From: Owenia fusiformis
Taxonomy: Eukaryota > Annelida > Polychaeta > Sabellida > Oweniidae
DNA length: 64,000 bases
Direction of reading: 5' to 3'
NCBI GenBank assembly: GCA_903813345.2
Contig: CAIIXF020000005.1
Coordinates: 9,737,375-9,801,374, forward strand
The notes under the pieces were generated by a model. That model did no database searches. It saw only the letters and a list, made by a program, of their open reading frames with translations, and was not told where the DNA came from. This document shows, piece by piece, positions 10,775 to 60,899 of the stretch; positions within the stretch are counted from its first letter, which is position 1, and each line of letters starts with the position of its first letter. Position numbers and translations under genes: made by a program.

Positions 10775-13700
10775 TGGACGAAATTTACGAAAGCCTTTAC
10801 AAAACCTCCTTCAAAAGCAGGTAATGCATTAAAAAAATCGATGTCAATGCGCTGTCTTGTGAACCACGAATTTGAAGTTAACATACAAACTTAATGCATA
10901 CTTTGCAAAGGAATCAGAGTTGATTTTAATCAAAAAACCATGCACAATATTTTGACCCACTTCCGGGTTTGTAACCACTGGGTTCACCTTGTGTATTGAA
11001 ATTGACCTTTATAACATCTGATATTATTTGTAGATAACAGAACAAGATAGGAATGAGTTTTTATATTACACACTCCTGAATAGGAAAAAATCAGTTTATC
11101 ATCAGAACACATGTCATTGTCATCCTTATGTGTTAGCTTTGGGATATCCCTGATTGAAAGCTCATGGGATATCGTACATGTACATGCGTGTATCGAAAGG
11201 GGGTTTGTGAGGCTCGTGCAAACCCCCCTCTACTCCATTCGCCTTGCACCTCCCTGGTCAGGAGCAACCCCCTTTTCTGAAAGATCAACGAATCCCAGGC
11301 CATGAACGAAATGTACACTATTAGGGATGGATAACTATTTTTGTACAAACAATGAATCACACGCTTACCAGTAATTTGATGACGTGCATACTATATTCAA
11401 TGATTTGATCGGTTCGTTGAAACTGTTTCCGTCACGTGAACTCCCTTCACCCCAAACCTCCCTTTCATTATTAGACGAACCCCCAGCCTGGGGAAAAATA
11501 GAAACCCCTTGGTAAATTCCAGCATCAGGCATCACCTTATTCTTAAATTTAATCATTATCATGTGAGGGAAGGGTTACTAAACCCTTCAACAAATCAATG
11601 AATGGATTTGCCATGCCAATGCTCCATATTCAGTCCATTCTTTATGTTTGCCAAGAAGTAAGTGTAAGTGTGGTACATCGACAAATTAGGGGGGGGAGAG
11701 TTCTAATATATACATCATTTTAGTTATCAGTGTGTTGCACAGGAACTTGTGTCAACATTTGCCATCTACTGTGACCTTATCCAGTACCAGGAATATAGTC
11801 CTAGACTCTCACACATACATTGTCTATACAATTACAAAGGATAGGTATTGATATGGTGAACTGGAATCAACAATGTTTTTCTCTTAAACCAATTATTGAA
11901 AACATTCTGTAAAAAAAACACGGTCCTTTATGTAATGTTGACTGATTGGCAACAATTAATGCAAAAATTATTTATATACATTTTATATAACTGTTTTTGT
12001 TAACATTTTTTGTTTTTTAGTGCAATTGTTTTTTGTTCCTTTCTACCAATTCTTGAGACAGAGAATGAAATTAAAGGCCTTTCCGATCCTTGTTGGAACA
12101 AAATAGCAAATACAACATTTTTTAGACCTCTCAATATTATAGATATACAAAGGAAATTTTGGTCGATTTAACAAAAAGTATGCAAAAACTTAAAACAAAC
12201 CCCCCAAAATAGATGAAAATTGAGATAAACCTTTTATTTCATTAACAAGATACTTTATTAAAATCAACGAAACGTTCCTTTGTACAATTACAATATTGAG
12301 AGACCTAAACACGTTGTGTTTATGTCGTTTCGTTCCAATGAGGTTCGGATAGATGTTTCATTTCATTCCGAACATATGATACCAAAAACAAAAGACGTGT
12401 CTTATGTGTTTTCTAAAACGATATAGAGAAGAGTATATCAATATATTTCAAATTATAATGTTACCATCCAAAAGATGACCATTAAATTGATGATGTGTAA
12501 AATTTTCAGAATGTTTTGATGACTGGTTTCACTTGACCAAACATGGTCCTCTAATTTTCAGAAAAGTTTAAGATGTCCCATGTCATATTATTTAAAAATA
12601 TTGAATATTTAACAATATGACATGGGACATCTTAAAATTTTCTTATTGTAAGCATAGAAAAAAATCAACTTTATTTTTTTATAATTTTTTTTTCTTTGCT
12701 TAGAATAAGAGTGACCTATTCAGTCGCTTACCATGCATTGATAAACAGGCCTCCTTTAAACATCATCTAGGGATACCAATGACGATGAATACCCTTTAAA
12801 ATGTTTATGGTTATGCTTTAGGTGACTTGCACCTCAGTTGTGCCAGTAAGATGCTTGAATCTACAGGAGTTCCACAGCAAGAAGCTGATGGCAGATGCTG
12901 GCATCAATGTGCAGAGATTCCGTATGGCAACTACTGACAAAGAAGGAATAGAGGCTGGACAATATCTCATGGATACAGGTACATTTTGTTTGATATACAT
13001 GGTGACCCAAAAATGTGATCTTATTTTTTTTAAAAATAGCTCTCAATTTCTTTCTGTCCAGGTTTGCTCGTGTACCAAATCATTCCAAAAAAAAATTTTT
13101 TTAGAAATCTGTACATGTATTTGTTAATTTCTCTAAAACATGCAAGTCAATTCATATTTTATATATCTGTCTATATGAAAAGTATTTGCGATGTAGGAAA
13201 ATTATCTGGAAATAATATTTTCCCATTTTATTTTCCCAAATGGCCAAAAATGCGTCCAATAGAAAATTTGAACAGCTATTTTGTATATTTGTGTCTTACT
13301 ACGTCTATAGTTTTACATAGCAGTTTTGTTATCCTATTCCATGTGTTGTTTTGTAGGAGCCAAGGAACTGGTCATTAAGGCTCAGATTCTTGCTGGTGGT
13401 CGAGGTAAAGGTGTATTTGATAATGGCTACAAGGGAGGAGTGCATTTAACTAAAGAGTGAGTACCACACTGTTTAGCTATTCATTGAACAATTTATGCTG
13501 CAAATGTTTCACTAAGATGATGCTGACTCGGTACGCGGTAAAATTGCATTTAGGCTATTTAATTCATGTAATAGAACTTTAATGTTGGAAATAAATAGAG
13601 TATGCAATGTTCTTTTTGATGTGATATCAGTGATACACATTACATTGGAGCTAAGTATTCACCTACCAGGTAGGTAACATATATGGCATACACATTTATA

Positions 13701-16700
13701 TAGAATTCTCCCTAAATGATATGTTAATATTTCTAAGTCATAACAACTGTTGCAATAACTATGACTGTCTTGAGGCCATGATATATCTGATAGTTGTCAT
13801 CCAGAACACCAATCTTCAGAAGCTACATTCTAGAGCAGATCAAATTTCACAAAGAATTCTAATAAAGGTACAACTCTGGATGGCTAAGGCAATAGCATTA
13901 TCAGCCACATAAATTATATGCATAAAGTACATGTTTTTTCCAGTGTTGAGAAAGTTGGACCAATGATCTCAAATATGGTGGGTCACAAACTGAAAACAAA
14001 ACAAACCAGTAAAGATGGCGCTACAGTCTACCAGGTAATATTTTCTTACTGTTACTCCAGGAAAGGTATTGGGTGAGAAACACTTGATTCACTGGCAAAA
14101 GATGTAGTTCATATCATAAATGAAAAGATTCATTATTTTTTTCATTATTTTGGCGGATTTGCTGTCTTGAACATTTGGCGGACTTGCAATATTACAATGC
14201 AGGCAATAATGGTACTAATTAACATGGGACAAAAATTACCAGGGAATTCGGCGGCTACTTAATTTGGCGGACTTTAACAATTTTGCGTTAAATTAAAATG
14301 ACAGCAAGATTAAGTAGCAGTACAGTATGCATGCCTGTGTGTCAGCAAAACACTATTCCTTGTTTCAATTTATCATCTGGAGATTGAACATGATCAATTG
14401 AATGGTGATTTAATTAAAGGTGATGGTGGCCCAAGCACTAGACATCGAGAGAGAGACATATTTTGCGATCTTGATGGATCGTGAGGCTAGTGGTCCTGTC
14501 ATGGTGGGCAGTCCAGAGGGAGGAGTTGATATAGAAGAGGTTGCGGAAACACATCCCGATAAAATAATGAAAGTAAGTATTGTACTGTATCTAGAGGTCT
14601 TGTAGAACAAAAAAATCTTCAGAATGTTTGACTTTGGAATGGAACAATTTGTAAGATATTCACAGAACAATTTTTTCATTTTAATATCAGAACAATTTAG
14701 AACAAAATAACCTTGCATCATATCATCAGATGTAGAAGTACAAAGACCAATATTAGAAAATCAAAAAACAAGCCCTAAAACCATGGGCTTCTAGTTGAAA
14801 GCCCACACTAAAACCATGGGCTTTCAATTATCTAGTTGAAAGCCCATGTTATAACTAATGAAAAATTATTTTTTAAATTGATTGTAAAAAAGTATATATC
14901 AAAAAACTCATGATAGCAATTGAAAGGATGAAAATGACTGCTTAAATCAATATATAAACAGGCATCAGAATTTTATTAAAATATGAAATTGTATGTCATC
15001 TCCAGGAGCCAATAGCTATAGATGGCGTCACTATGGAACAAGCAATGAAGATGGCAGGATTTCTAGAGTTCACTGGACCTCGACAAACAGAGGCCGCTAA
15101 ACAAATTATACAACTATATAAATTATTTATGAAGGTAGATGCAACTCAGGTGGAAATTAATCCTTTTGGTGAAACACCAGATGGCGAAGGTAATTGGAAT
15201 ACTCCTTTACATGATAGAGCTCTTTGATTTGGAGGAGTGAATGTGTCTCCTTATAAGATTAAAATATTACACATGACACAATCTTATTCTCATCTGTTTT
15301 TCTGTGCTGGGCTCCTTTTCAGATTGAAGAGAAGTCCAAATACCTCAATAAGCAGAATTGCATTTGATGGACAAGTGTTTCAAACGGAATTGTATCAAAA
15401 TGTCATAAAATTTTGGTTTAAGTACAAATACATTATAAAAGTTCTTGTTTATTTAAAATTATGCAGTATTTGATTGAAAGAAAATGTTTGATTCATCCCT
15501 TTTATAGTGGTATGCTTTGATGCAAAAATAAACTTTGATGATAATGCTGAATTTCGACAGAAAGATATTTTCGCACTCAATGATACCTCAGAAACTGATT
15601 GGAGAGAGGTGAAGGCTTCTGAACACAACCTCAATTATATTGGCATGGATGGAAATATAGGCTGTCTTGGTAAGAAAGTATAATATATATGGTAGTTCAA
15701 TCATTCAGAGAAGCTTGCAAGATAAATTCTAAGATACACCATTGATCATATGAAATAGTTCCTATTGATTTCCTGTTTTCAATGCCCTCTCACATTTTAA
15801 TGAATGGAGATTTTTCAAATATTTGTAATTAAAAACATTATTCATTTCCCAGGAACTTATTTGCAAGAAATCATTGAAATTTTAGAGAATATACTGGTAA
15901 AAGGGCGTATTCTTCAGACTAATCAGGATTTCCTGGATTACATTTTTAACTGGAAATTTTAAAACTTCTACCCTTGCATTCTTTCATGCAAAATTCATTC
16001 TTTCATGTAATTCTCATAGTAAAGACCATTTACTGATTTTTGTGAAATGTTAAATATTCCACAATCCATATATTTCAACAACAGTATAGGGTCATTTACA
16101 GTATACAGTTCAGTTTACAACAGTACAATGCAGTACAATACAGTACAGTACAGTACAGTTAAGTACTGTATCATATGATACTCAAGTATGCATTGCAATA
16201 ATGTGTAGCACATGTATTCACATGTGATAGTAGATTTGTAAATATATCTGTTTTATCTCATATACATGTACTGTAGATAACTATGTATCTGTGAAATCAT
16301 GATGATTTCCTTCATAAATATGCTATCTGGTTATCTTTTATCTTTACTGTCCTATCTAATATCATGGAAGCCCATGCTAATTTACAACATTCGATATTGA
16401 GAGTATCTAGAGTTTGACTACTTTGATTATATTCAGGTTCAAGTTGTAGGGGGATATTTTTAAGCTGTCAATCAAATGATGGGTTCTATGATTGTTTTGT
16501 TTTGAAGAAATAAAAGGTACATTGAATGCCTATAAAATCATATTCATCATATTGTCTACCATATTCATATTCACAGTATGACATCATGAAATATTAATTG
16601 GCAGTGGCAAAGCACTGATTTTTGACCAACTACACTTAAATTACTTAAAATAGATAATCTTGCCTCCAGCTAGTTCAAATACACTGTACAGAAGAAAATG

Positions 16701-21744: not shown

Positions 21745-22205
21745 GTCTAGTCAAGTGCGGTGTTTTACTGAACCAGACGTTGAGAGAAAGGTGAGGACTG
21801 AGATCAAGGGTGTGGGCATTTCACATTTAACTTGTCTAGTCAAGTCTCGACATAGTTTTGAGATAGTTTTGCTGAACCAGACATTTTTAACCAGACGTTT
21901 TTAATTTCTTTAAGTAGAGTTAATGTCAAGGTTGCTGTTTGTAAAATTCTGATATCATAAAAGCTCTTCCATTACATCAAAAACTTGAGAGAGCAAAAGG
22001 GGAAATGTCACATATCTAGTCTAGTCAGGTACTTACATCTGTACATAGTTTATCTGAACTAGACATTTATGAAATGACTTGTTTATTTTTTCCTTCTATA
22101 ATCATTATAATCAAGGCTGTTCTTAAAATAATATCAATAAGCTCTCCCCTAAGATCTCTTCAATATTGAGGGTGAGAGACAACAAGGCAGAGTGAGTCTA
22201 GTCAA
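21745..22205. repeat. Degenerate tandem repeat, about 180-bp period
   Basis: GTCTAGTCAAGT-type starts recur at 21745, 21834, 22019 and 22196. Shared downstream blocks include CTGAACCAGACATTT, TTATAATCAAGGCTGT and GCTCTCCC. One unit is a half copy (89 bases); the others are 185 and 177 bases. Non-coding. Confidence 0.6.
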
Positions 22206-22215
22206 GTACGATTAT

Positions 22216-22459
22216 ATACAGTAAAACCAGTCTAAGTGGAACACCTTTGGTTCCTCTAAAAAGTGTTCCACTTGGGAGGTGTTCCACTTAAAGAGGTTCA
22301 TTTAACATTTAGTCAGTCAGTCACGGGACTCTAAAAAGTGTTCCACTTGGGAGGTGTTCCATTTAAAGGGGTTCATTTAACATTAAGTCAGTTAGTCTTG
22401 GGATTCTGAGAAGTGTTCCTCTAACAGAGGTGTTCCATTTTACAGGTTTCACTGTATAT
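22216..22459. mobile_element. GTTCCACTT-family repeat, copy 1 (inverted ends)
   Basis: Starts ATACAGTAAAACCAGTCTAA and ends ACAGGTTTCACTGTATA, so the ends are imperfect inverted repeats. The interior contains repeated AAGTGTTCCACTTGGGAGGT blocks and GGTTCATTTAACATT twice. Related copies lie near 46359, 59306 and 63812. Confidence 0.65.
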
Positions 22460-23859
22460 ACTTTCCTTTTCAATAGTCCAGATGTCTCAAAAACTAGCTT
22501 GTTATGTATCTTCTTGTAATAAATAAAATCAATGCTTCTTCAATATTGTATTAATATAAAATAATTATGTAAAAAATTGCAGTCATTCAATTTCACAAAA
22601 GATACAACTCCCTTATATTTCAAAAATGTCTTAACATCAAATTCTTTATTTTAGGCACATATGCTCGAGCTATCAACCTTGGAAACAAGTAATTTTGTTG
22701 AATAAACAAATTGAAGAATGCTGCATGATCCTGTTTACGGCATAGGTCTACTGGAAAGTCAAAACAAAGGTAGGACAACAATTCAGCTTGTTTATCAATT
22801 AGTGAGTTGGGGATCATTAGTGTTAAAGTTCTTATGGTATGCAAAATTGATAGGCATTTGAAGTGGCATTTTTAAAAGTAGATTTGTGTATTTCATTTTC
22901 ATGTCGCCACCAAATGACATTTCGTCACGTAAATTACTTGTGATGGTATCGTTATATATTTCATGTAAAATGTCTTTTACAATATACTTTTAATTACAGT
23001 TTAATGGTAGGAATATTGAGGAGATTAAATTAATTTTGAGAAGACATGAACATCTAGAATATTTATTATGGTTATATGTGCACAAACACAGTTGTTATAA
23101 GTTCCCTGGAGAATTGAATTGAGAGGGGTCAGAATCAGAAGTCCCTTAGGGTTGTGATATTACGCATTGACATACAAGTTCTCTCAAAACACATTCCTGA
23201 TTCTCTGTAATTGGCGCTCACTCTCTAATAAGCACCCTCATGTAATTTAAAGCATTATTAGTTTGTTCTCATTTTTTCATGAACATTTCACCTTGTCAGT
23301 TCCAACCATGAACCTTTCCTTGTTATTACATGTTAAGAAGTAATGTGTAATGATGAAGGAGAATTTCATAAAACTGCTGTTGTGATTAAAGATTATCAAA
23401 AAATGACGCAATTGTAAATCGGGACATTTTGGTTAAGATAACCTTATTTTAAGACAAAACAAAGATTTGTCAAAAAATGTCCTTTCTATTGACATACAGA
23501 CATATAATTAAGGTAATGCATTGGCCTGAATAAATCAGGGCAACTTTGTTTACAATGTTCCTTTCATATATATTTCATGAATTTTCTCTATAAATCAATG
23601 TTTTTACTATCTTTTTGTGTTTTATGTTGATTTCAATGAAGTTATAATGTTTTTTCCAATCTGGATGTTTCTTTTCAACTCTTTTTTCTCATTTTCAGAT
23701 ATTTTGACTTGAATTTTTATTCTTGGGTAGTATCATTAGTGATAGACACTGTGATGACATCATCATTTGAAATTCTATTTAAACGACGATTTAAGTAAAC
23801 TGTTTTAGTTTAGTCACGATTACGCTTTTTAACACAACTCCGATATTCCGCTAGCGATA

Positions 23860-26800
23860 ATGGGTCTAAAAGTGACATGTAGATCGTGTTTAATTCTACT
23901 TGTGTTGGGACATGCTAAAATCACACTTGGAAAACCAATACCAGAGGAAGAGAAAAACATCATTTCTGAACTTGAGCTTAAAGATGAAAAAATACATGAA
24001 CTTGAACATAAAATAGAAGAAGCTAAAGTGAAAGATCTGACAGAAAAAATTGAAGAACAAAAAAGGAAGTTCAAAATAATATCAAAGCTGGTTGAGTATG
24101 AATATGAAGTCATGAAATTATTGGAGAAAGATGACAATAAAAAAGAGATCAAAATTGATCGAAAGATTTTAGAAAATGAAGTTGAAAAAATATTGGTTAA
24201 AGATAAATCTGTTAAAACACCTGTGACAGAAATTCCTACTCCAGCTATGGGTAAGTCATATTGCTGAATTAAATTTGACATTTTTGTCAGTTTTGCAATT
24301 TTTTTTATTATTATTTGGTATTTATTTGTTGACTGATTCATTAAGAGACTCTATTGTGTAACTTTTAGAAATAACAAAACTTACATATCAATTATATGAA
24401 ATGATATACAACTGGGACAATTGAAATAGCAAAATAATTAAAAAACAATGTTTAATCATATTAGACAGGTTCCAATTTCAGAATATCTCAAGGGAAAAAG
24501 TTTATGAGGCATTTTTTAGAAAAAGCAACAGACCTATTTTTTCTGGATCAGTTTTTCATGCTGATAAAGATATTAAAAGATGACAGCTCAACGAGGTGGT
24601 CACGACACTGAATTTTAGCGTTTTTACCCCCCTAGGAAATTATCTTAGGGGGTACTATAATATTAGTTCATAACTCAAAGGATATATAAACTATTGTTCT
24701 GAGTTCTACAGCATACATTGTTAGTACAGAGATGAATACTATCCTTAAGTTATAGGTTGATATCTTTGTTGGTTTCGAAAAAATACAATTTATTAGAAAA
24801 AAATATGCAATTTTTGTCATTTTTTCTTGCTTATTTTATATTTGTAGCTTCAAGCAAAATATGATAACTTTAACAGCTCAAAGTAGTATTCTAACAACAT
24901 TCCCAAGCTATGTGTGATATTGTAATACATCTATTATAGTGATGAAGTACTATTTTGTAATTTTAATATGACTTTATAGTGCCCTACCCCTGGTAAATAG
25001 AAGAAAGTTGGTGTGGTTTTCTTCTGGTTTTAACATTTTATTGACTTCTTAGTTGAAGATACAATCAATTCTGTCAGTTTACCATGAGAAGCTTTACAAT
25101 GGTTAACTATTCCCATGAATAGAGGGTTGGGACCTCAAAAATACCAGAACTGTTAAGTGGCATTCTTGGGCATCCCTCTTCAGAGCATTTTCCTTATACT
25201 CCGATGAAATCTGCAGGGGATACTATAAGAAACCTATATATCTAAGATACTAATGAAGATACTGAATTCAAATTTTCAGGATTTGGTCCTGGTATGATAG
25301 GTAATCTGTATGACAAAAAGAAAAAACTCTGTTGCCATAGTAACAAGAATACCACACTATTTGTTTCCTAAGAAATGTGTTTTAAGAGGTTTTGTCATTC
25401 TCTTCATATTTTTAATTCTAAATATGTCTACAATGTAGGATGATTAGAATTATGGTAAAGTAATCTTTTCTATTGTTTTATTGTTCTCTAAAACAGAAGT
25501 TGCTATGGCGACACATAGATCATAGAAAAAATGCTGGGATGATCGCTCTATTTGTCAGGAAATTAAAATGGAAACTGAAAAATGAGTTTCTTCCCACCGA
25601 ATAGCAATTAATTTGGTAGACCATGGCTGACACGCACAAGAGAAAACGTTTATCAGTTCTATGTCATTTTGTTTTTTTTTGTTTTTTTATTTATCGTGGT
25701 CTGGGACTTATAACACCTAATACCGAGTCTTCTCCAACTGCAAAGGAAGGCAAGATTTTAATAATGAACATTCATATATCTCAACAAATATGGCCAAAGA
25801 TTTGGACAATGATGAGGAAACTCTGAGGGAAAATTAGACGAAATATTAATGTGAGTGGTCCAAAAATAACACTAACATGTTTTGGAAAAGTTATGCTCTC
25901 GGATGACTCAGTGCTCATTTAAGGATAGTCTGAATCAGGTTAATCACGTTTTTAACCTAATTGCACCCCTTCCCCAAACCCCCAAATTTTGACTCAATTG
26001 TCGAAAACTAGCAAACAACATTCATTAAAGATCAATATGGCTATTTCGCTTCTATGTCATAAAGATATGATACGATCTCAGGTCAATCAATAAATTTCAC
26101 AAGTGACACTCTATCTTATGAAGAAAATACTATCGTATTTGAAGACATGTCAAAAATTTGGTTACCCTTTGCATTCGTTTGACTTCACTTCTTAAAAAAG
26201 AGCTTCGTCTTCACTCTTTCAAACTAAAATAAACCTGTGAACTCACCGCCCCAATCAGTGTTCGTCGGCCAAATTTGACATGCGCATATTTAATTTGATA
26301 ATAAAGTCAATTGGACTCGTAGATATTTCACTAGCAATCAACCCATCAATATATTTTTTTAAAGTTGTTGACCTCATTTTCACCAAAAATGGAATCATTT
26401 TAACAATGTTTGATGCATTACTATTCTTTATTTTAATGTATCAAATAGCTCTTCAAAAGAAACTGAATTCCCCTAAGATTAGTGTTCCCCATGTTATTTC
26501 CCCTTTGAAAAAATTCATGCTGTCCATTGGTTTCAGTTCATTTTGGTCATCCAAATTCAGTGTCTTTAAAGTCCCTGGAGCAATCCACTTTTCCTCTTAG
26601 GAAATATAACATGTCTCAAAGCATATTTTAATTATGCATCCAACAATATAATTAAAGGTTGCATCTTTGGTAAAAACTAGGTCATCATTTTTACTAAAAA
26701 GTATGTTGATTGGGCCATTCCCTTTAATATCACTCAGGTCTGATTAATCATTATATTTACTCTTCTTGAAGATAATGAATAGATCTAAAAGATATACCAA

Positions 26801-29800
26801 TGTTCATGGTCAGAAAATATTCATAATTCAAGTTAGAATTGACCTTTTTTATATAAATGGAAAATAGATGGCATCAAGAAGTTATTCCATTTGGATCAAC
26901 TTAAAACATCATTGGAATGTAACTATATGATCTTATTGACATGTGGATTGTGATTTCACATTAAAATTGTGATCCTTGTAAGAGTAAATGAACTTTTAAA
27001 GGTTTTTCAGCATTTTGTCAATGGGGATTTAGCCCGACCTTTTTTAGACAACCAGAAAATCATTAGAATTTGAATAATGGTAAATAACAGTGCAAATCAA
27101 AGTTGTTTTGATAGAGAATTACTCACAGAATTCAAATATGCCATCAGATGGAAGAAAACGTTAGTTTTTAATGGTAAAAAATGCTGATCTCCTAAAATCT
27201 CATTAAAAACAAGACCTTAACGAGATTTCAAAGCTATATGGAAAAAGGACCATTTTCTGAAGTTGTTTGCGATAACCTACATGCTCCTTTATAACATTAT
27301 TATGTAAATACTATCAAATGCTTTAGTCATGACAGTTGAAGTAAACTGACGTCTTGGTATTTAAATGCAGAATCAGATCTATGTAAACAAAATTGAAAGC
27401 AATTGAAAGTACAATCTCAAATATAATATCTCCCAAAAGATCCACAATATAAATTATTTATTGGTAATGTTGTTTAAAATTCAAAGTGTAAAAAGGGGGA
27501 AATGTTCAAATTCTCCCAAATAATAATAAATAAGTTACACTAAGTTATACAAGTGTGAGGCACCATCAGTGGGAAAGTCATCTTTGGTGAATAAAAAAGA
27601 TTCTTAGCTACTTTTCTAACATATGGCTGTGATGCATCATGGCTTAATGAGGACTCTGCTATATGGTCAGATAATGAGAACTAACAGTTTTACGGAACTT
27701 TTGCCATGTTTTGCACATTGTAAATGACCCTTCTGAATGGGTTGTAAAGGAGGTATATATGGCTCAAATGACTCGTGCCCTAGTACATGGGGCACTGAAG
27801 TACATTACTTGTGCATGATGACCACCATAGTCTAGTTGCTCAAATGAGATCAATTGATGATTATAATGTTTAGACTTTATGTCAATGTCCTCTCTAGTAT
27901 GTGATCACACTAGATTTCATTATGATACATGTACTAAATTGAAAACTTACATATAAAATATCTTAAGTCCTATATTCTAGTAATAAATGAATTAGAATGT
28001 CACCTAACATTTGATGATGGTATGAATTTATTGATTTGGTGTCTATCAATACATGTTTCTAACTTAATGCTGCAAAACGATAAAATTCACCACATCCACT
28101 TTCTTCAATTTTCCAGAGGTAGGGCACTATAAAGTCATATTAAAATTACAAAATAGTACTTCATAACTAAAATAGATGTATTACAATACCGCACATAGCT
28201 TGGAAATGTTTTTAGAATACTACTATGAGCTGTTTAAGCTGTCATATTTTGCTTGAAGCTACAAATATAAAATTGGCAAGACAAAAATTGCGTATCTTTT
28301 TCCTGTTTATTGTATTTTTTCTGAGACCAATAAGGGTATCAACCTATAACTTTAGGATAGTATTCATATTTGTACTAGCAATGTATGGTGTACAACTCAG
28401 AACAATAGCTCATATATCCTTTGAGTTATGAACTAGTTTCATAGTACCCCCTAAAATATTTTCCTAGGGGGGTAAAAATGCCAAAATTCAGTGTCGTGAC
28501 CACCCCGTTGAGCTGTCATCTTTTAATATCTTTATCAGCATGAAACATTGATCGAGTGAAAATAGGTCTGTTGCTTTTTCTAAAAAATGCCTCAAAAACT
28601 TGAATTATTAGAATTGGAACCTGTCTATATTTTATTACGATTGACTTAGCTGTTTATATACAAATACTAAATTACATTACAATTTCAGTTATTTTAGTGT
28701 TCCTCATCATATCATAAATTTCTTTTAAGTTGATACAAAATACATGAACAGTTGTATTCTAAATATTAATTTATCACAGCACAAATCATCACAAATCTTG
28801 TTTGTTTCAGAATATCCTAAAAGAAAACAAGTCAGAAAGTGATTAATAAAGTGAAAATAGAAAACTTTTGCCTCATTATTTATACAGTTTATGTGCTACA
28901 TGCAAATTTCTATTTTCTTGTGCATTAGCATTTCTTAATTTCTCTTTTTAAGAACTTTTATAATAGAAAAAATTGAATTTTGATTTTAAGTTGATTTTGT
29001 ATCGAAAATCTTGATATCTAGTAGTGAATTTTGATTCTCTAATGTAAAATCATTTTGTCATCAACATACAATATATAATACAATTTTTAAAACTTTTAAA
29101 TTTTATTTCTTTAGCGGTTGAATTTCATTAATATATATAGAAATGAATTGTTCAATCTACATGAATTCTTTACTCCATCTATGTGATCTGTTTCTATTAT
29201 TTTTCACTGAAGAACAGACAATTAAGACAATTAAATGGTTTACTAGAATATGATATGTACACCTCTATTAATTTTTTTTAAAACAATGATCATATTGTTT
29301 TCCTATTTCATGAACATAAAAAGTTAAAGAAGTTGATGAAAATGTTCAATTCAAATGACAAGTAGAAGACTGTAGAGAGTGTTTTGAATAAGTCAGCAAT
29401 TTCAGATCATATAATTGAAAAATGGACTGGGATAACATTACACAGGGTTCAAACATGGAAATGCCATGGAAATGTAGGGAGTTTGAAATACACGCATAGT
29501 CAAAGAGGGCCTAAATTGTTAGGGATTAAATTGAAATAATTCTATATCAGAGCTAAAAAATAAAAGTAAAAATATCATAAAAATATTTTTTTTTATAAAG
29601 TATTGATATACTGGTTGAGCAAAGCAAAAGAATCTGGAAAATAATATTTTTGCCTGGAATCGTTAGGTAATTTTATTCAGAAATGGTTGTAGTTTCAGTT
29701 TACATTAAAATATTGGAAGTATCTTCAAAAAGCATGTCAATGTTTTCCTTCTAATCCTAATTTTATTTTCTGAAAAATATATTGGGGTATCTGTTCAAAT

Positions 29801-32474
29801 AAATATGAGCAAACATCATGTTATTGGAGATTTAAGAATGTAGATATATCTAATTTTTGGGTATAAAATAGGCATACTATCTTTATGGCACCACCAAAAC
29901 TTCTTTGTATAGGTTGTTAGCTCACATGGTGAGCTTTTGCAATCACTCACTTGTTGGTGTTTGGCATTCATAGATCAGCATCTGTAACAAATGGCAGGTG
30001 GTGACACTTTGGATGTTATTGCCTTCTTTCAATTTCATCAAGATAACCATGAAAATCAAAGGATTATCCTGAAATTAAGTCGAAATTGTCACATGAGGTG
30101 AGAGCAAAATATATTCAAAAATTTGGGCAATCTTTTAAAAACTTGTCTCTGTCCCATCTACTTTTTATTTTATTACTGTAAAGTATTTCCATTTCATTAT
30201 TTTTCTACTGTATGGTAGTCAATCGCAAAAGCTCTTCTTCGAGAAGGAAATAAAGACGAACAAACAAACAAACAAACAAACATAATAATAAAAAGCAACA
30301 ACTTTTCCAAAATAATTTTTGTTCATGAATTATTTTCATTGCATTTCTAATCATATACTCTTAATATTGAGTTATTATCCAAATTTCTTTATTATTTAAT
30401 TTAGTCAACTTAATTGTTTTTAGCTTTGTATTTGAAATCTATGTCTAATATTATATGGGCTATGTCCTCAGTATGTTGGTTGATTTTGAACTTTAATTTC
30501 CAAACTTTTTTCAGTTTGTTAAATTTATTTTGCTTGTACTTAAACACATTAAAGAAATACTAGACTACAAATGCTTGTGATTTTTAACTCATTAATTTTG
30601 ATGCCCAATGCGTTCATGTCATTTTGTTTCAAAGTGAATTGTTTGTAAAAATGATAAATTTTTAAAATGTTTTCGAAGCCTTAAAATATATTCTACAGTA
30701 TGTAAAGCATTTTAAAAACCGTTAATAGAATAATAAGATGAAATGCTGTTAGTAGTATGTGGCAGTCTCAAATACATATATAAAGCTCTACAAATCTACG
30801 AGAACAACAAAAATAGACACTACATAAAACTTTGGGCATTTCCCATAATGATATTTCAACAATAAGTTTCATTATTGGTTTTGCATTTTGAAATTCTATG
30901 ATAATTAATAGATTTTGTTAATTTGTTTTTCTGACTTACTGACAGCCCTACCTCAAACATTATAGAAAAATTGGCATAGTGGTAAAATATCATTGTTGCA
31001 GAATCAAATAGAAGATACATAACAATACAACGCAATTAAGGGTTTGAAAAAATATCTACAAAATATAGATAATATTGGTCTATTTACAAGATGAATCAAG
31101 ACTTTTGAACCTGATTCACAAAAAAGCCACCAATAAATGTTTTAATTGTCTTTGGGCCCCTTACAAGGGTTTTGTAACCTGGGTTTTGTAAATGTAATTA
31201 TCCCACCCTAAGTGCTTTAAATGATTATATAATAGCATGGTATAACTGCAATATAACACTCATTGTATACAACTCGAACGATATACAATTCCTGGATAGC
31301 GTATACACCTCCTGGGCAGTATATACTAACTCTTTGACTTGATATACAACTGCTCAATTTAGATTAACTTTTTTTGAAGATTTTTATTATGTTTTTTTGT
31401 AAAGCACTTAGGGTGGGATGGTAAGATCATGTAATTGTTGATTTTGTGTCTCTTTATACTCTTGTGAGTACATGATATACTCACTTGAGTATAAACACAT
31501 ATACAGAATCAACCATTAATTCAATTCAATTTTCAATTCAATTCAATTTATTCATACATTTAATCATTATGTGTATATATATTATTAATAACAGGTGGCA
31601 CCACAGGTGATGCTTATACCCGTACATATAGTAGTTAAATTAAAATTATACAACCTCATATATTATTACATTCCTCGTATTCCTTATTCTTGCAGTGGAT
31701 GAGAGCCTCTCAGAAGAGGAGGACACAGCTTCCAATGAAGACGTGAGTGGGTCTGGAGAGGAGGGAAGTGGAGAGGAGAGCAGTGGAGTTGATGGAAGTG
31801 GATCAGGTGGCGCTGAAACTGAACTTGTTGGTGGTGAAATAATCGGAAGTGGTTCAACAGAACCAATGACAGTTGATGTTGTAAATGCTGAATACAAAAC
31901 CGATGCTCAGTTGCCAAATGCTCCTAAGGATGAAGGATTCATGGACTATGAAGAAAAGAGAAAAATAGACAGACCAACTCAGACAGATGATAATGAACAG
32001 ACAAATAGTGAATCAAACGAGGGACATATATTCGCTGCAAATGATGATGAACATGTTCAAAATGACGTTGAAGTTGTGGTCACAGCAGTCGATAGTGCCA
32101 CACATGAAAAAGATCCCAATGTTGATAAAGATTATAGTGAGTTGGACACCGACACTGAGCAGAATAAAATTGAGACTACAGTTGAAAGTGAGGAGTTTGA
32201 TCAAATGTTTGGTAATGTGGATGAGGAATATGAACAGACTCAAAGTGAGGAAGAGTCTGAAAGTGAAAATGAGCCTCAAACTGAGGAAGAGCCTGAAATC
32301 GAAAAAGAGCCTGAAAGTGAGGAGGCGCCTCAAAATAGGTTGAAGCGAACTGAGGCAGAACACAGAAATGATGAGGGACATGTGTCTGTTGTAGCAGTGG
32401 CCAGTAAAGAAAGCCAGCAAAATAAAGGAAGATGGCTTTTCGGTTTCATCCCCTTTAAATGGTTAATACCTTAG
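23860..32474 (+). CDS. Secreted acidic Ser-Gly protein, candidate proteoglycan core or precursor
   Basis: Two exons: 23860-24250 (donor GTAAGTC) and 31696-32474 (acceptor TTCTTGCAG), in frame, 389 aa. Residues 1-24 form a signal-peptide-like start with the hydrophobic run CLILLVLGHA. Residues 27-115 are Lys/Glu-rich with heptad-like leucines, probably a coiled coil. Residues 132-184 are acidic and hold seven Ser-Gly dipeptides (148, 150, 155, 160, 165, 167, 182) next to Glu/Asp, the known glycosaminoglycan-attachment context. Many S-x-E sites suit a secretory-pathway kinase of the FAM20C kind. Residues near 305-342 are Glu/Pro repeats. RLKR (345-348) is a furin-type site; the 41-residue tail ends in an aromatic, hydrophobic stretch, GRWLFGFIPFKWLIP. 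I recognise no orthologue. It could be a small proteoglycan, a biomineral matrix protein or a peptide precursor. Extra exons in the 7.4-kb intron cannot be excluded. Confidence 0.7.
24464..28625. mobile_element. 4.2-kb element with 540-bp terminal inverted repeats
   Basis: 24464-25023 and 28088-28625 are reverse complements at roughly 85-90% by eye. Both ends begin GACAGGTTCCAATT and are flanked by TA. Landmarks in both arms are CCCCCTAGGAAA-type, CAGTGTCGTGACCACC-type and ATAGTGCCCTACC-type sequences. The 3-kb centre has only short ORFs (for example 26280-26600) and no transposase I recognise. It lies inside the single intron of the acidic secreted-protein gene. The arm divergence indicates an old insertion. 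Confidence 0.78.
28811..28842 (+). CDS. Possible alternative last exon of the acidic secreted-protein gene
   Basis: TTTGTTTCAG (28801-28810) is a good acceptor. Joining the first exon (ending in phase 1) gives EYPKRKQVRK and then a stop at 28840. An AATAAA lies 3 bases after the stop. The product would be a 140-aa form made of the signal peptide and coiled coil, without the Ser-Gly domain. Only transcript data can confirm it. Confidence 0.3.
28845..28850 (+). terminator. AATAAA after the possible alternative last exon
   Basis: Canonical polyadenylation hexamer, three bases past the predicted stop. Confidence 0.3.
29935..30030 (+). repeat. GTGGTGACAT-family dispersed repeat, copy 3
   Basis: Contains TTGGTGTTTGGCATTCATAG, CATCTGTAACAAATGGCAGG and GTGGTGACACTTTGG. 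Forward orientation, inside the intron of the acidic secreted-protein gene. Confidence 0.6.
30258..30284. repeat. ACAA tetranucleotide microsatellite
   Basis: About six ACAA/CAAA repeats directly after GAAATAAAGACGA. Microsatellite ends like this are common at retroelement 3' ends, but no element body was recognised. Confidence 0.6.
31200..31420. mobile_element. 221-bp MITE with ATCCCACCCTAAGTGCTTTA ends
   Basis: 20-bp terminal inverted repeats, perfect by eye, at 31200-31219 and 31401-31420. The interior has several GTATACAAC/GATATACAAC-like subrepeats. Non-coding. Confidence 0.7.
31437..31513. repeat. Imperfect 75-bp palindrome
   Basis: TTGATTTTGTGT ... TTTATACTC ... GTGAGTA is followed by TACTCAC ... 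GAGTATAAA ... AGAATCAA, so the segment folds back on itself. It lies about 180 bases before the last exon of the acidic secreted-protein gene. Confidence 0.6.
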
Positions 32475-34859: not shown

Positions 34860-36060
34860 AATTCCGGATTCTCCTGGCCAAAACAAAATAAATAAAAAAA
34901 TGATGTTTTATTGAATCTAGATTTCCAAAATATCACAACTATAATTCTGTATTTCATAAAATATAAACAGTGTTTCTACTAATTATTTTGAAATTAAAGA
35001 TGGCAATTTTTGTTTCTTTACATTTTACTGTTGCCTCAAAATGGTTTTCCCAATATCAGTAATTGTTCATCATTTACTTAGTAAAATTGCTTTTCCCATG
35101 TATCTTTAAATACAAACGTTCTGTCTTTTCCTCTTAAAATGTCATATAAAAATTTAGATTTCTGATGATTCACATTTATTGTTTAATCAACGAATTTAAA
35201 TCTTAATGGTTTAAAGGATATATTTATATATTGTGATTTGTGAAGTTTGCCTGCTATTTTTTAATAGTTTTATTGCATTTTGTACTTCATAAAATTTTGC
35301 TTGTTGACAAGTTTTTGATAAATGAAATCAATATGAAGCAGGAATTTTTACGAACGAATGAAAATTGGTTTGTTTTATGTGATGAAAAGTTTATTTCCCC
35401 ATATTAGTTCTTGTAAACTGTAAAGTATGGAATTTTATGAAACATTTTTTGTTTTTCAAAATCAATCATATTTAATTCTCCTTTGTTTATTCAAACAAGT
35501 TGAGTTAAAGTTTATAATAACAGACCAACATATTTCTTAATTTTTTATTTCCCTATAAAAATTCAAAGAAATGAATAGAAAATTTAAAAGTTAGTTGTAT
35601 TATACAAATTAAGTTTATGACATTTCTCTTCACTGTGTCCTTAGTGAATGCCCAAATATTTTACAGGTTCATTTGTAAAAGTAATATCTTCATCAGTTTT
35701 TGTACATTTTTCGAGCCAAATTCCTTCAGTCTTATAAATTTTAATCCAGAAAACCCATGCAATAATATCTTGATTGTTGATAGAGCATGTTTGTCATATT
35801 TTAGGTATAGTGCAACTTTATATTCACTATAAGCTATTGTTAAACCTTCAACTTTCTGATTTTGCTATAAAGCTTGATCCATAACTTCACAGCACAAGAT
35901 AAATGCCATTGCAGACAAGGGGCAGCCTTGACGACAAGAACGTTCAATATTAATATCTTTAGAAAGCCAACCATTTTGTTTAATATTCAAGAATAGTGTC
36001 TCTGGCTTCTCATATAGTAATTCTAACCACTTGACATATTCATCCAGGTCATATATTTCA
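34860..36060 (-). mobile_element. Decayed LINE, reverse-transcriptase fragment (L1/Tx1-like)
   Basis: On the minus strand, 36055-35868 reads DEYVKWLELLYEKPETLFLN, a short linker and then ERSCRQGCPLSAMAFILCCE, the RT finger/palm block with the RQGCPLS motif. Below it, broken frames read STI..ILHGFSGLK, VKYLGIH and then KDTWEKQF, in the order expected for an L1-type RT thumb and C-terminal region. Several stops and frameshifts and loss of the catalytic YADD block show it is dead. The 5' part (endonuclease, early RT) and a clear 3' end are missing. Confidence 0.72.
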
Positions 36061-36593
36061 CAAACTTGGGTTGATACTCATATGTGTTGTATACACTTCA
36101 TAACATTTTTGGACAGAAAGACATGACTGGTGTCAGGCTGTTCCATTAACATAGTCCTATTAAATAGGTATTTGATTTAAGGTCTTAAGGTCTCCAATGT
36201 ATCATAACTACATGTAGGCGTGTAAGAAACAAAATCATATTAAGAAACATCATTTTAAGATCAGTCATAAATTAAAACAATTTATCATGCTTTTATCATG
36301 TGTTAACTATGTAAGGTATTCTTTGGACATAAGTGTGTTTACGTGCAGCAAAATATAAATGTACATCACAAACTAGAATATAAATGATTCAAATACATAC
36401 TTTATACACATACAAGTAGTCCACTGTTAATTTGTTTTTCTAAGATTGTCATTTACTGCACTCATTTTCAATAGCCTAGATGCAAATAGATAACCTTAAT
36501 TTTCATCATAAAATGTTTAAAATTTAGTGGAAGTGATATTTAATTTAAAATCTACATACAAAAGCACATTAATGTGGTTGCAATAATTGTACA

Positions 36594-43600: not shown

Positions 43601-46600
43601 TAAAATTTGATAATGCTTTTTCAAGAAATTTTACAAAATTGCCTTTTTCCTTTTTTGTGGGGGTTGCGATTGCAAACATCGCAACCCCCTGGCTGGGCCC
43701 ATGCCTACTGTATGAATAAATGTTTAAAAATGAGTAAACATAACACAAACATTAAACTCATAGAAAATGTATAATAATATAAAAACTAACTCCAAAGTCC
43801 ATCCTTCATCTCTTCAATTTTTTGTGAGATCATGCGGAAGTTTCCAAATACTCGCAGTTCCTCACAAGCTAATGATAACCAGAGAGGATTCTGGGAAGAT
43901 TCCTTTGACAGCAATGTTTGCATCTGTTGCTTATCTAAAGATTTGTTATATTTCCCTAACATATCCTTGATGATATCCTGTAAAACAAAAAAGAAATATC
44001 AACCAATATATGTAAAATGATAGATGAGGAATGAAACATGCAAAATTTCACCACCTGCCATTTGTTAAAGACACCAAACTCTGAATGCTGTCCAAAAAAA
44101 GTTTGAGACTATAACAATGTGTCATCACTTGTGGTTGTGACATAATTAACTATACTGATAATAGGAATTGGTAAGATTTTGGTGAAAATGTGAAAAACAA
44201 TATTTTGGTTAACTGTGTCTCCCCTTACCGTTCTGGATTCCATATCAAGGGGTGTGAGGTTCATCATGTATGGCTGAGGTTCCCTGGACTGAAACACTTT
44301 ATGCTGAGGGGTGTCAGGTATCATAGAGAACACACATCTGATCTGAGGAGCTAACTTCTTTGGAACCCAACTAACAACCTCTGCAGCTGTATCATTGTCT
44401 AACTGAAATTCAGCACATTGCCAAAGTGAAATACAGCACACATTATATTAAAACACTTTCAGCATACACAAGGCATTCAAAACAGACTTGGCCCATTTAA
44501 TTTCTCTGTGTAAAGATTCCGTTATTAGACAAACTGAAAGATCACAATTATCTATTATCAATTATGTTATCATATTTAATATTTACTTGGTTAAGGGCAT
44601 CCACAATGATAACAGTAGGGCGAGTCTTTTCATTGTTTAATGCTCCACATGTAAATTGAGCTGCGCTGTCCAGATCTTTAACCATATCAGTCTCCTGAAA
44701 ATACAAGATACAGTATAACATCTCAACTTGAACAAAACACTGTATGTAATATGGACATATTTCATAGGCTTATTTTTATTACTTCCATTGCATCTTATGT
44801 TAAATTCGCCTCTCTGACAACAGACATGAACACCCCAAACAGCATTCCTAGCAGATTTTGAAAAAAATCATCAAGAATTCAATAAAGTGAAACCTATCCT
44901 CAATAATGACCCAAACGTGACATTTTGTTCTAAATCTGTTTGAATCTTTATCTTTAAGAGTGTAACAAGTCAGATACTGGACATGAAAGGGAATGTTCTA
45001 AAATTCAATACCCATGCAGGAATCGAACAAAGAACCTTCTGCTCCATAGACCGATGAACAACCCCTGAGCCATAAGGGCTCACCACTACAACTGAGACTT
45101 GTTAACGAGGGTCATTACACTAACATCGAATGTCATTAAACTTACTACTCCCATCTCTTTAAGTAATCTCTTGAGAAGTTTCTCTAGTTCTGTAGAGCCA
45201 GGTACAGCACCCACAAAATGGTAGAACACATGCCAGCCTTTATCTCCACCCCTGCACAAAGATACACATTGCATATCATTATATACGCCATAGGTATTCT
45301 GCATAGTACATTGGCTTATTTATGGTAACATATTATAAATAAACAAAGAATTAACATGCAAAATGTCACTACCTACCATTTGTAACAAATGTCAGCGGCT
45401 AAATGTTAACTGCCAAACACCATCAACATAAAAATATTGTCAATTCTCGGGGCTTTACACATAAATTATATTTAATACACAAATCAATTGAGAAGGAGTG
45501 AGGAACTTAGTTTGGTATTAAGTTCAACTTGATTTTTTTGGAATTTGGGAACAATCAACTCACCCAGGAATTTGCTTGCTTGCAGCTTTCTGTGATGTCA
45601 CATCTGCAAGCCGTGACATCACAGATGATTTACCGCTCCCAGCACCACCTATCAAGAGGAGAGGTTTATCCACACCTGGACCACAAATGTGCTCATCTAC
45701 CTGAAGTGACATAAAAAATTTTGAACATTATGGTGCCATTTACATTATTGAACAACTCACGGTCAATATCAACAAACACCAATAGTTAATCCTTAGAAAA
45801 TTGGGGAAATTAAAGTGCTTGTAAGAAATCTAATAATAACATTGTTGTTAAGTTTAGACATCCTCTTGGCTAAAACGAGCATCTTCGCACGCTCGGTCTT
45901 CACTGAGACCAACAGGATTCTAGTGAATGAAGGCGTATAACAACTACAATGTGGAGAATCTCAAACAGGTCATGTGTTATGACAACAGATCAGTCGGGGA
46001 AAACAACATTTTGAGCAATTTCCTGGGGATTTCTTCAAACACCGACCTTTTTGAGAACATCATCTCTTCCTATTACGACAGCAGCATTACTCTTCATGAA
46101 AGCTTCATGCTTCTGTCTTATCCTCTCAAATGGATCTTCAGATTCTTTGTCCATCAATGGATATTGCTGTTCAATACGCCTCTTGAAAAATTCAAATACT
46201 GTCTGACTGAATGTACCATCTAAGCCACTGAGTGCAACCTTTTTTATTTCCTCATCATAGCCTTCATATTTGACTTGGTATGTCTTCACTCTTTCAGCCT
46301 GTAATTTAAGATGAATGCATTAACAACACAATGTGCTTCTTGTTTGGGAGAACAAATATATAGTGAAACCTGTATATCCGAACATCTCTCAAATCTGAAC
46401 ACCTCTCAATATGAACACATTTTCTTGGTCCCAAATTTATTATCTTCCATTGACTTGCTTGTTTTAGAAACCTTGAAATGTGAACACCCAACAGGCTAAC
46501 ATAAAAAAGTTAAAGTTGTCACTGCATAAGCAGTACGAGGAATTAACATTATATCACCTCCTGATAAGTCATTGCAAATGATTATATAACTGTAACAATT

Positions 46601-49600
46601 GTTACAGACATATTAAATAACTGTAACAATTGTTACAGACATATTACATAAGTGTAACAATTGTTACAGACATATTAAATAAGTGTAACAATTGTTACAG
46701 ACATATTGCAAAAGTGGAACAATTGTTACAGACATATTGCAAAAGTGGAACAACTGTTACAGACATTGCAGGTCAAGCACCTTACACTGATCACCAGTCA
46801 TTAAAAATGGAGGCCAGAACAATATGTTCCCACTCCTTAGTGGTGACATAATAATGATGAACTTGTTTTACTCACAGTAAACCTATCAAATATCATCTTT
46901 TTCAACATCTTGAGTTTCTCTGGCGCAAGCTCCTGGTCATCTACAAAAGCTGTTCTGTGAGATTCTGGAACACCCTCGAGAAAACTTGGGTCCCTCAACA
47001 TAAAAATGGCTGAAAGAAAAAAGAAATGTTTAGATTAAAATACTGTAAACCCATTGGAATTTTGAGTATACATAATTATGTTCCTATTAAATTCCCTATA
47101 GAAAGTTCAACAAAGTTCACACATTTTAATTGGGTTCAATCTGAAATTCAGATTTTCTCTTAAGATACAAAGTACATGCTCAATTCAGTCCAATATTTTG
47201 GATAAAATATGCAAAACTTGATTTAAAACACTGAATTTCTCCCTACATGTATGTACAATACTTACAGTTTGGATTTTCTTTCCTATAAGCTGCATGCATG
47301 ATTTCCATCTCAGTGACTGATAGACCATCTATCCACTTATACTGTGCCTTGAGACCCTCTGGAATGTCAGGTCCTCTAGGGATCCAGCCTATCCTCTCAC
47401 TAGAAAGTATGGGGAAGACAATTGAAACCTGAGGCATTCAAAATAGGCCACTTAGGAAGTTTCAACAATTTTATCATAATCAGGGGACCATTTGTGGTGG
47501 TTGGTGGACCAGAGATGTAACTTTTCTCCAAGATCCAAGATTGTTAGATAAAAGAAATGCAATGTTATGCAACGTTTAATTTCAAAATATGTGATTGATA
47601 CAAGGCATAAACATGCAAAATATCACCATCTGCCATTTGTTACAGATGCAGACTGCCAAATGCAGACTGCCAAATGCCAAACACCAATCACCGAATACCA
47701 AATAACAAATACCATCCACAAAAAAGTTGGAGACTACGTATAACAATGTCACCACTTGCGGTGGTGGCATAACAAGAAAACAAGCTTTACTATGAATCTG
47801 AGATTCTTTCAATGAAATATTCCGGTAGTTACAAAAATAGACCTTTGATACAGGTACTAAAAACGATATACAATGTATTATAATACTGTATAATGACTAC
47901 ATTTTCTATTATGAATTGGATAAAAACATGTACATTTTACTAACCTTGTCATGTTGACAAAGAATGGCATAATATTATCTTGATAACACCGATCTATCTC
48001 TCCCAGACATGTTCTCAATGTGGACTCTGTCGTAGAATCTTTTGGAACACCCTGTAAATATCAGAAATCATACCATATAATATAGGGGACATCTTGTAAT
48101 CATAAGTCATGCCTTAGCATTTTGCTTTTTTGATCAACCAACTGATAAGAGTATTTACAATTAGATCTTAAATAGAGGTTCTTTATTTATTTATATTTCA
48201 ATATTATATATTATTATTATATACCTCATATGTATTCTAGATGCTCATTGGCTTATTCATGGTCACATGATATGAAATAGGTGAACTAATTCCCTGGAAA
48301 GCCCTAAATATCTGGTACCAGAGATCACCAGTTAGATCATGTGACCAGTCATTAGCACATTTTATTTCCCCCCATAGGTGAGGTTATAGGAGTTGAAAGG
48401 CAAAATGCCTTCAAATCCCAATAAGACCCTGTAAACATTTAATGTTGAAATGAAGACTTCTCATTTTGTTTTTGTTTACAGAGTACATATGGGGTATATA
48501 ATAAAACAAATAGTGACTGCCACATTTTAGTCACTATTTGTAAATTAATACATGTATACATAGATGGACAGATGGACTAATAAATATTTTGTTAAAAGAA
48601 GAAATTACCCATCTGAGGTCACACTCCACCAAATGAAGACGTCTACTCTGACACCATACTCTCAAATCTGGAAACACCTGGAAAAAGTACAGCATACAGT
48701 GAAAACTCCCAAGCCAATCACTGCAGATCATTTTTGAACTTATAAAGTACATTTTAAGTTCATACCACATATTTATAAGTATTTTAATTCACTAATAGGG
48801 ACATGGATGCAACAATGTATCTAAACTGCAACCCTAGACAGGTATTTCTTAGGCTGAAAATGTAGATTTTACTGAATTGAATCAGTTTTAACTAACCTTA
48901 ATTTCCCCTTCAAGTCCATGCTAAAATATAGTGCTAATTCATAATGAAATAACTACTGTACTCCAACAACGGGACTAACATATTTCGCGAATTAGAACTA
49001 TTAGCATTTTACAACTATTATATTTCACAAATTTTCCAAAACTCGCGAAAAAAGCAAAACATAGTCAGATAGTCGAAAATTACCAGGAGTACACTATTAT
49101 TGTACTTGTTGGATTGTAGCATGGGTTGGTCTATAGATTTACCAGAAGAAGTGAGTAGCTCCCATAATTCTTTCATATTCTATCATATTCGGGGATTCCC
49201 CATTATACGATCTCCAATCAAATTGCAAGATGTGATCACGTGAACAATCATGAGCACATGCTTTCTCAGTGCCGCGCATGCGCAAGTAAAATTTGATATA
49301 GTTGAAATGGCATCTATTTCAGTTTAACCCAGAGGTCTCACTCACATATACTTCTTAATACCTATGTGCCGCCCCAAACAACATCATCATTCAGTCCCAC
49401 CCCCCCTGTAGATTTACTGAGCATGTATACATTTACCTTTTTCACCAGCACCTCCCTCTCTTGATGGAAATCCCTAAAAGTTGAAGATACGAATATTCGT
49501 ATAGTCTTCCATCCCGATCTCTTGACCACTAAATTCTTATATGGATTGGTGTCTTTATCCTTCACTTCAAGAGTTGTAAAAACTGCATCCCATGTCTGTT

Positions 49601-49664: not shown

Positions 49665-49834
49665 GTTGATTGGTCTTTATGGCATTGTATTTTCTATACT
49701 GTTATGTGGTATTCTTCATCCTAGGATTATAAGTCATGTAAAAAGAATCAAAATAAAAATATAGAAATTTTTAGGTGGGCGATAATAGGGTAATTTCAAA
49801 ATTTCATGAATTAAAAGCATTGATTTCTCATAAT

Positions 49835-60228: not shown

Positions 60229-60899
60229 ATGTGTCCATACTTTGTCCATTGTCTCATCACCATGCATGTATAAAACAACACAATGCTCATAGTTATGTGT
60301 CCAATACATAGTCTCATCACCATGCATGCAAAATACAACACAGGTCTTATAGTTATGTGTCCCATACATAGTCTCATCACCATGCATGCAAAATACAACA
60401 CAGGTCTTATAGTTATGTGTCCCATACATAGTCTTATCACCATGTATGTATAAAACAACACAATGCTCATAGTTATTTGTCCCATACATAGTCTTATCAC
60501 CATGTATGTATAAAACAACACAATGCTCATAGTTATGTGTCCCATACATAGTCTTATCACCATGTATGTATAAAACAACACAATGCTCATAGTTATGTGT
60601 CCCATACATAGTTTTATCACCATGTATGTATAAAACAACACAATGCTCATAGTTATTTGTCCCATACATAGTTTTATCACCATGTATGTATAAAACAACA
60701 CAATGCTCATAGTTATTTGTCCCATACATAGTCTTATCACCATGTATGTATAAAACAACACAGGGCTCATAGTTATGTGTCCCATACATAGTCTTATCAC
60801 CATGCATGCATAAAACAACACAGGGATCATAGTTATGTGTCCCATACAGTCTCATCCCCATGGATGCAAAATACAACACACGGTTCATAGTTGTTCTTA
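60229..60899. repeat. 60-bp minisatellite, 11 units
   Basis: The unit starts CCCATACATAGTCTTATCAC. Eleven units of 60 bases (the outer ones degenerate) fall into subtypes: CATGCATGCAAAATACAACA (two units), CATGTATGTATAAAACAACA with AATGCTC (five), and the same with AGGGCTC (two). Because 60 is divisible by three, minus-strand frames stay open for 244 and 209 codons with a 20-residue repeat. I read these as repeat artefacts. The array starts about 60 bases after the stop codon of the next gene, so it is probably in its 3' UTR. Confidence 0.93.

Follow-up and report, generated by a model that had tools for sequence, protein, structure and literature searches.

What kind of protein is encoded by a two-exon gene on the + strand of the annelid Owenia fusiformis? 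The gene lies in a window of 64,000 nucleotides, the whole stretch of DNA that was analysed, and all positions below are those of the window unless another contig is named. An earlier note, made from the letters of this DNA alone, had offered three guesses: a small proteoglycan core, a mineral-matrix protein, or a peptide precursor. These features carry the argument:

23750..23786, + strand: core promoter block, CRE-like TGACATCATCA and TATA-like TATTTAAA (labels by eye), identical in both copies of the gene
23860..24250, + strand: exon 1, carrying the start codon, a leader resembling a signal peptide (aa 1-24), charged helices at aa 29-90 and 101-117, and a phase-1 donor
24019..24123, + strand: predicted five-heptad coiled coil, aa 54-88 (helix prediction and heptad test)
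24251..31695, + strand: intron, GT..AG, 7445 bases
31696..32474, + strand: exon 2, the acidic half, predicted disordered, including the stop codon
31746..31853, + strand: Ser-Gly block, aa 148-183, with E/D-G/A-S-G serines at 155 and 165
32239..32334, + strand: 18/36-base tandem repeat giving Glu-rich units, e.g., EEEPEIEKEPESEE; its length varies between the copies
32337..32348, + strand: RLKR, a furin-like site that the second copy lacks
32436..32471, + strand: last 12 residues, LFGFIPFKWLIP, whose coding DNA is unalignable to the second copy (break after 32435 by eye; blastn)

A coding gene in two copies

The gene structure is established. Exon 1 (23860-24250) and exon 2 (31696-32474) join in frame to a protein of 389 amino acids, exactly as the earlier note had proposed, with the donor GTAAGT at exon 1 and the acceptor TTGCAG at exon 2. 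A second copy, with an open frame of 404 amino acids, lies in the same assembly on another chromosome-size contig (G000:C9, from 30823233 onward). Its exons (L006:3234-3618 and 6570-7399) meet at a phase-1 junction, as in the window copy, and the two proteins are 65% identical over 377 aligned codons. Because the second copy supports its coding status, the two-exon gene is, judged from its sequence, real as a coding gene. Searches of the assembly with each exon of each copy (cut-offs of 0.001 and 0.1, and then 10) found these two loci, and the rest had E values of 0.475 or worse. This count of family members is a lower bound.

Coding constraint is evident between the copies, and it is weak. 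Over the 377 aligned codons, dN is 0.20 and dS is 0.34, giving a dN/dS of about 0.6. dS was no greater than dN in 1 of 1,000 bootstraps of the whole alignment, and in 43 and 44 of 1,000 when residues 25-130 and 131-290, respectively, were taken separately. None of the seven gaps in the DNA alignment of the coding sequence was out of frame, whereas in three non-coding blocks lying upstream 24 of 33 were (8 of 8, 10 of 16, and 6 of 9 singly). For lack of blastn homology, the 3' flank was not counted; a forced alignment of 300 bases gave 46% identity, with two of six gaps out of frame.

The intron of the second copy has 2951 bases, compared with 7445 in the window copy, and the two introns can be aligned only over about 20 bases next to the donor and 6 next to the acceptor. 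In a search for hidden exons, the introns were compared with each other by blastn, and 128 intronic frames of at least 20 residues were compared with the other intron by tblastn; no convincing match lay outside the splice junctions. The best scores were a tblastn E of 0.005 over 13 residues and, away from the junctions, a blastn E of 0.019. The 3' ends are unalignable past about 32420-32435 (the blastn piece stops at 32420). These unalignable introns and 3' ends, together with the dN/dS of about 0.6 and the lack of a credible family match, are what might be seen in a functionless gene, decaying or newly born, whose frame is held open through repeat-rich composition. However, both frames are intact, all of the coding gaps keep the frame, and the splice sites and promoter block are kept. 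We regard a functionless gene as highly improbable.

Three blocks within the upstream 2.2 kb match the second copy at 72 to 77%. The promoter block is the longest identical run (37 bp) in the 23352-23859 block, and its TATTTAAA stands 84 bases above the start codon. A 32-mer from it had two matches in the genome at up to three mismatches, one per copy, and none in a backward-pattern control. Two of the upstream blocks are separated by a dispersed repeat, about 240 bases long (about 22201-22464), which is missing from the C9 copy; overlapping it is a 75-base tandem repeat (22254-22440). Of 71 matches listed after the scoring of 40 of 3477 candidates, the dispersed repeat makes up the remaining 67, and its number in the genome is a lower bound.

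If the intron were retained, translation would stop within a few codons in both copies (24251-24267 here, and past the donor on C9), and the resulting ends are alike, GKSYC and GKIFC. Intron retention is therefore a possible source of a short form with leader and coil only.

Other features of the window were found by a domain scan of 10 of its 105 open reading frames and by inspection of its repeats. Upstream of the gene, on the + strand, 12825-15224 holds exons of a succinyl-CoA ligase beta subunit of the GDP-forming type. The ATP-grasp_2 match had an E of 2.5e-9 for 14958-15224 (best PDB E, 4.3e-17) and of 0.0057, under the cut-off, for 12825-13124. On the - strand are an EF-hand exon at 1396-1701 (EF-hand_1, E of 1.2e-9), a weak reverse-transcriptase fragment at 35868-36077 (E of 0.0026, below cut-off), and a DUF4062-like stretch at 49365-49676 that scored just below its cut-off (23.7 versus 24.7 bits). 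The frame of this last stretch holds MGCGSS, perhaps a gene start on the - strand. There are also two tandem arrays, one at 46581-46766 (31-base unit, 6 times) and one at 60247-60892 (60-base unit, 10.8 times, 93% matches). The latter falls within two - strand open frames that each exceed 200 codons.

The leader and the N-terminal coil

The earlier note had recognised a signal-peptide-like start. This leader, of 24 residues, has a hydrophobic core and is kept in the second copy, and its putative cleavage site, between TLG and K, agrees with the (-3,-1) rule for signal-peptide cleavage sites. From these features, the protein is probably secreted.

AlphaFold2, given exon 1 alone without an alignment, predicts helices at residues 29-90 and 101-117, with a pLDDT of 90 or more at 50 of 130 residues. 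The best 35-residue heptad window spans residues 54-88 and has VLIQFIVEML at its a/d positions. It was equalled in 11 of 1,000 shuffles, and in 9 of 1,000 for the second copy, where all ten a/d residues are kept except for M to I at 85. A single-register coil over residues 33-92 was also tried and rejected, with no signal in either copy (2515 of 5,000 shuffles were as good, and 3321 of 5,000 for the second copy). The coiled coil of the earlier note therefore narrows to the 54-88 window, which is beyond chance and has its helix and register kept in the second copy, but it does not extend to a 60-residue register.

The acidic half and the C-terminal tail

The acidic character described earlier is clear, with a net charge of about -57 at pH 7.4 for the 389 amino acids of the window copy. 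So are the Ser-Gly clusters in acidic context. Ser-Gly dipeptides are at 148, 150, 155, 160, 165, 167, and 182. When residues 26-389 were shuffled 20,000 times, these seven compared with a mean of 1.4 (P 0.0001), and the six with acid on both sides compared with 0.76 (P 0.00015). The second copy has five Ser-Gly dipeptides in all and a milder excess (P 0.011, and P 0.039 in acidic context). Each copy has two E/D-G/A-S-G serines, at aligned places, a number reached in 12 and 10 of the 20,000 shuffles.

Conservation of the block between the copies is partial. Four of the seven sites (150, 155, 160, and 165) are kept, including both in E/D-G/A-S-G context, and three are lost; the sole relative compared is the paralogue from this genome. 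Two GSGEE units are inside a 15-base tandem repeat, and therefore slippage may have made some of the Ser-Gly sites. Exon 2 alone is predicted to be disordered (mean pLDDT of 47.7, one sequence), which is weak evidence because a single low-complexity sequence often scores in this way. Unstructured regions hold attachment sites, according to a passage in PMC10570366. E/D-G/A-S-G is the motif that glycoproteomics mapped on the chondroitin cores of C. elegans, according to a review (PMC8418075), which also cautions that a motif by itself points only ambiguously to a proteoglycan.

The earlier note also drew attention to many S-x-E sites, a FAM20C-type context. There are 10 of them, although their enrichment is slight (5.4 expected by shuffling, P 0.025; 11 versus 6.3 in the second copy, P 0.033). 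Six of the 10 are kept in the second copy, and two of these six, at 150 and 155, are Ser-Gly sites too. RGD is absent from both copies. Little stands behind the mineral-matrix guess, given the marginal S-x-E excess, the lack of RGD, and the tube of a congener, which is made of fibres and sediment: Owenia collaris tubes are described in a part of PMC4375521 as layered secreted threads with sediment grains. A shell-matrix framing is also unfit because the host is an annelid. The domain content of the genome fits such a host: PF16915, a family named for annelid erythrocruorin linkers, had three matches over its cut-off on C6 (best E of 5.0e-7) and none in 14 control genomes, of which those known by name are prokaryotes. 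A molluscan haemocyanin sandwich domain gave no match here or in any control, and COX1 was not found.

The same S-x-E sites could instead belong to a polyanionic adhesive or tube-cement phosphoprotein, phosphorylated by a FAM20-type kinase. The genome does have Fam20C-domain matches at three or four places (12 exon-sized matches), and the number of S-x-E sites, with more than half of them kept, would fit. Against this, their enrichment is marginal, two of the kept ones double as Ser-Gly sites, and serine makes up only 28 of the 389 residues. We consider such a phosphoprotein distinctly unlikely.

The third guess concerned the C terminus, where the earlier note had described an RLKR site and a 41-residue tail. 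Both are present in the window copy, where RLKR starts at residue 345 and 41 residues follow it. A precursor from which furin, cutting at RLKR, frees the tail as a bioactive or membrane-active peptide would be consistent with the fit of RLKR to R-x-[KR]-R and with the hydrophobic, aromatic tail end. It would also be consistent with what the copies share, namely an identical TEAEHRNDEGHV after the site and a hydrophobic end beginning G-x-W-L. However, SKEQ stands opposite RLKR in the second copy, and R-x-[KR]-R occurs nowhere in that protein. The DNA alignment breaks after Trp377, so that LFGFIPFKWLIP is unshared, and the second copy ends in WLNDLLNYLLPV. Taken as a helix, the last 15 residues are non-amphipathic, with a moment of 0.10 at 100 degrees; the moment of 0.30 at 160 degrees leaves room for a strand. 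Dibasic pairs number seven (overlapping) in the window copy versus two (KK) in the second, and the KK pair at residue 94, common to both, is inside the exon-1 helix region. Comparison of the two copies did not reveal a cleavage site, whether R-x-[KR]-R or dibasic, conserved in the way expected of a neuropeptide or prohormone precursor. Since RLKR is not kept and DNA homology ends before the aromatic tail, there is less to support a cleavable peptide, and we think the peptide-precursor guess very unlikely.

The copies also differ in N-x-S/T sequons: the second copy has six (L006:3234-7399), and the window copy has none. This difference may be chance because shuffles often reach such counts (none in 416 of 5,000 for the window copy; six or more in 698 of 5,000 for the second copy).

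A candidate proteoglycan core and known systems

Of the three guesses, the proteoglycan core is the best, with its Ser-Gly excess and both E/D-G/A-S-G sites kept. We tentatively favour, short of firm belief, a two-copy gene whose product is a small, fast-evolving, acidic proteoglycan core that is secreted. The leader would route the protein into the secretory pathway, and the N-terminal coil, from the helix prediction and heptad test, may let it oligomerise. The disordered second half would expose to peptide O-xylosyltransferase the two E/D-G-S-G serines kept in both copies, with at most four kept Ser-Gly sites in total, and the protein could then leave the cell with chondroitin- or heparan-type chains. 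Together, the glutamate-rich repeats and sugar chains might form a polyanionic bristle that hydrates and binds calcium or basic proteins. The weakest step is the last, in which the bristle might help to build mucus, tube lining, or other extracellular matrix.

Xylosyltransferase-type and Fam20-type domains are expected in any animal. Among the matches listed, two pieces were over the Xylo_C cut-off, both on one contig (G000:C189:10938-11984), and each carries one stop, as would be expected if six-frame matches enter introns. This contig is numbered far beyond the twelve chromosome-size contigs.

A granin-like or gland-granule acidic protein, which condenses with calcium and basic cargo in secretory granules and carries a sugar chain incidentally, is a doubtful reading that nonetheless deserves weight. 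It would account for the strong negative charge, the long Glu-rich predicted disorder, and the position of both window-copy cysteines inside the leader. Chromogranin A and secretogranin-1 are tabled with heparan sulfate in a part of the review PMC8418075. This reading overlaps the proteoglycan reading because prohormones and granins can carry such chains. However, the dibasic pairs drop from seven in the window copy to two in the second, and Pfam gave no granin family match.

A more elaborate version of the proteoglycan core, which we hold to be unlikely, is that of an annelid core confined to one lineage, whose copies diverged in processing. The window copy might have gained the furin-like site and aromatic C terminus (or the other copy lost them), alongside the contrast in sequons. 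The C terminus could come from unrelated DNA at a duplication edge, making one copy a releasable form that anchors to matrix or membrane. To our knowledge, few annelid proteoglycan cores have been described. A literature search for annelid proteoglycan cores with Ser-Gly found no annelid case; nor did searches for the Ser-Gly string of this protein, or for Owenia with tube, proteoglycan, and secretory, find a paper.

The earlier remark that no family matches agrees with the Pfam, NCBIfam, and PDB searches. With the exons taken singly, Pfam gave no match over cut-off (best, 15.4 bits versus a cut-off of 27), and NCBIfam matches were far under their cut-offs. The best PDB match (exons singly, except exon 2 of the second copy) had an E of 0.023 versus the required 0.001. 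PDB matches to MepR, RPA32, and RAD23 (E of 0.02 or worse) were taken as chance. Among viral contigs, 111 stretches matched the exon 1 pattern, and none encodes a relative. The word orphan is limited to the libraries compared because none is an annelid proteome. The protein has no relative found outside its genome.

Acidic secreted proteins confined to one lineage are common, and the general picture would be unchanged even if the proteoglycan reading is true. In that case, the protein, being small and keeping two strict attachment sites in both duplicates, would allow the motif rules to be tested easily outside nematodes and vertebrates, and might offer a way into tube secretion in an annelid that branched off early.

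Which known systems does the protein resemble? SIBLING proteins are acidic and disordered, with S-x-E and RGD. The window protein is like them and other FAM20C substrates in its acidity, predicted disorder, and S-x-E sites; it differs in having no RGD, a marginal S-x-E excess, and an N-terminal coil. Sabellariid cement proteins are polyanionic and poly-serine. They also come from a tube-building annelid, and the window protein would likewise be polyanionic and secreted; it is set apart, by description only, by the absence of a poly-serine block from its sequence. In the part of PMC6262867 that describes sabellariid cement, sulfated proteoglycans were not detected in the cement cells of the tubeworm Sabellaria alveolata, which counts against the proteoglycan reading, though sulfated polysaccharides had been reported for Phragmatopoma californica. 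The window protein differs from granins in its few dibasic sites, its sole and unconserved R-x-[KR]-R, and its lack of a Pfam match. Granins are acidic, disordered, and secreted. Some, such as chromogranin A and secretogranin-1, carry glycosaminoglycan chains, as a part of PMC8418075 has it, which is their likeness to the protein proposed here. From the C. elegans CPG family, it differs in its N-terminal helical coil and in having no Pfam domain over cut-off. Several CPG proteins are secreted. Likened by description only, the window protein shares with CPG core proteins their E/D-G/A-S-G serines, as these are presented in a section of PMC8418075.
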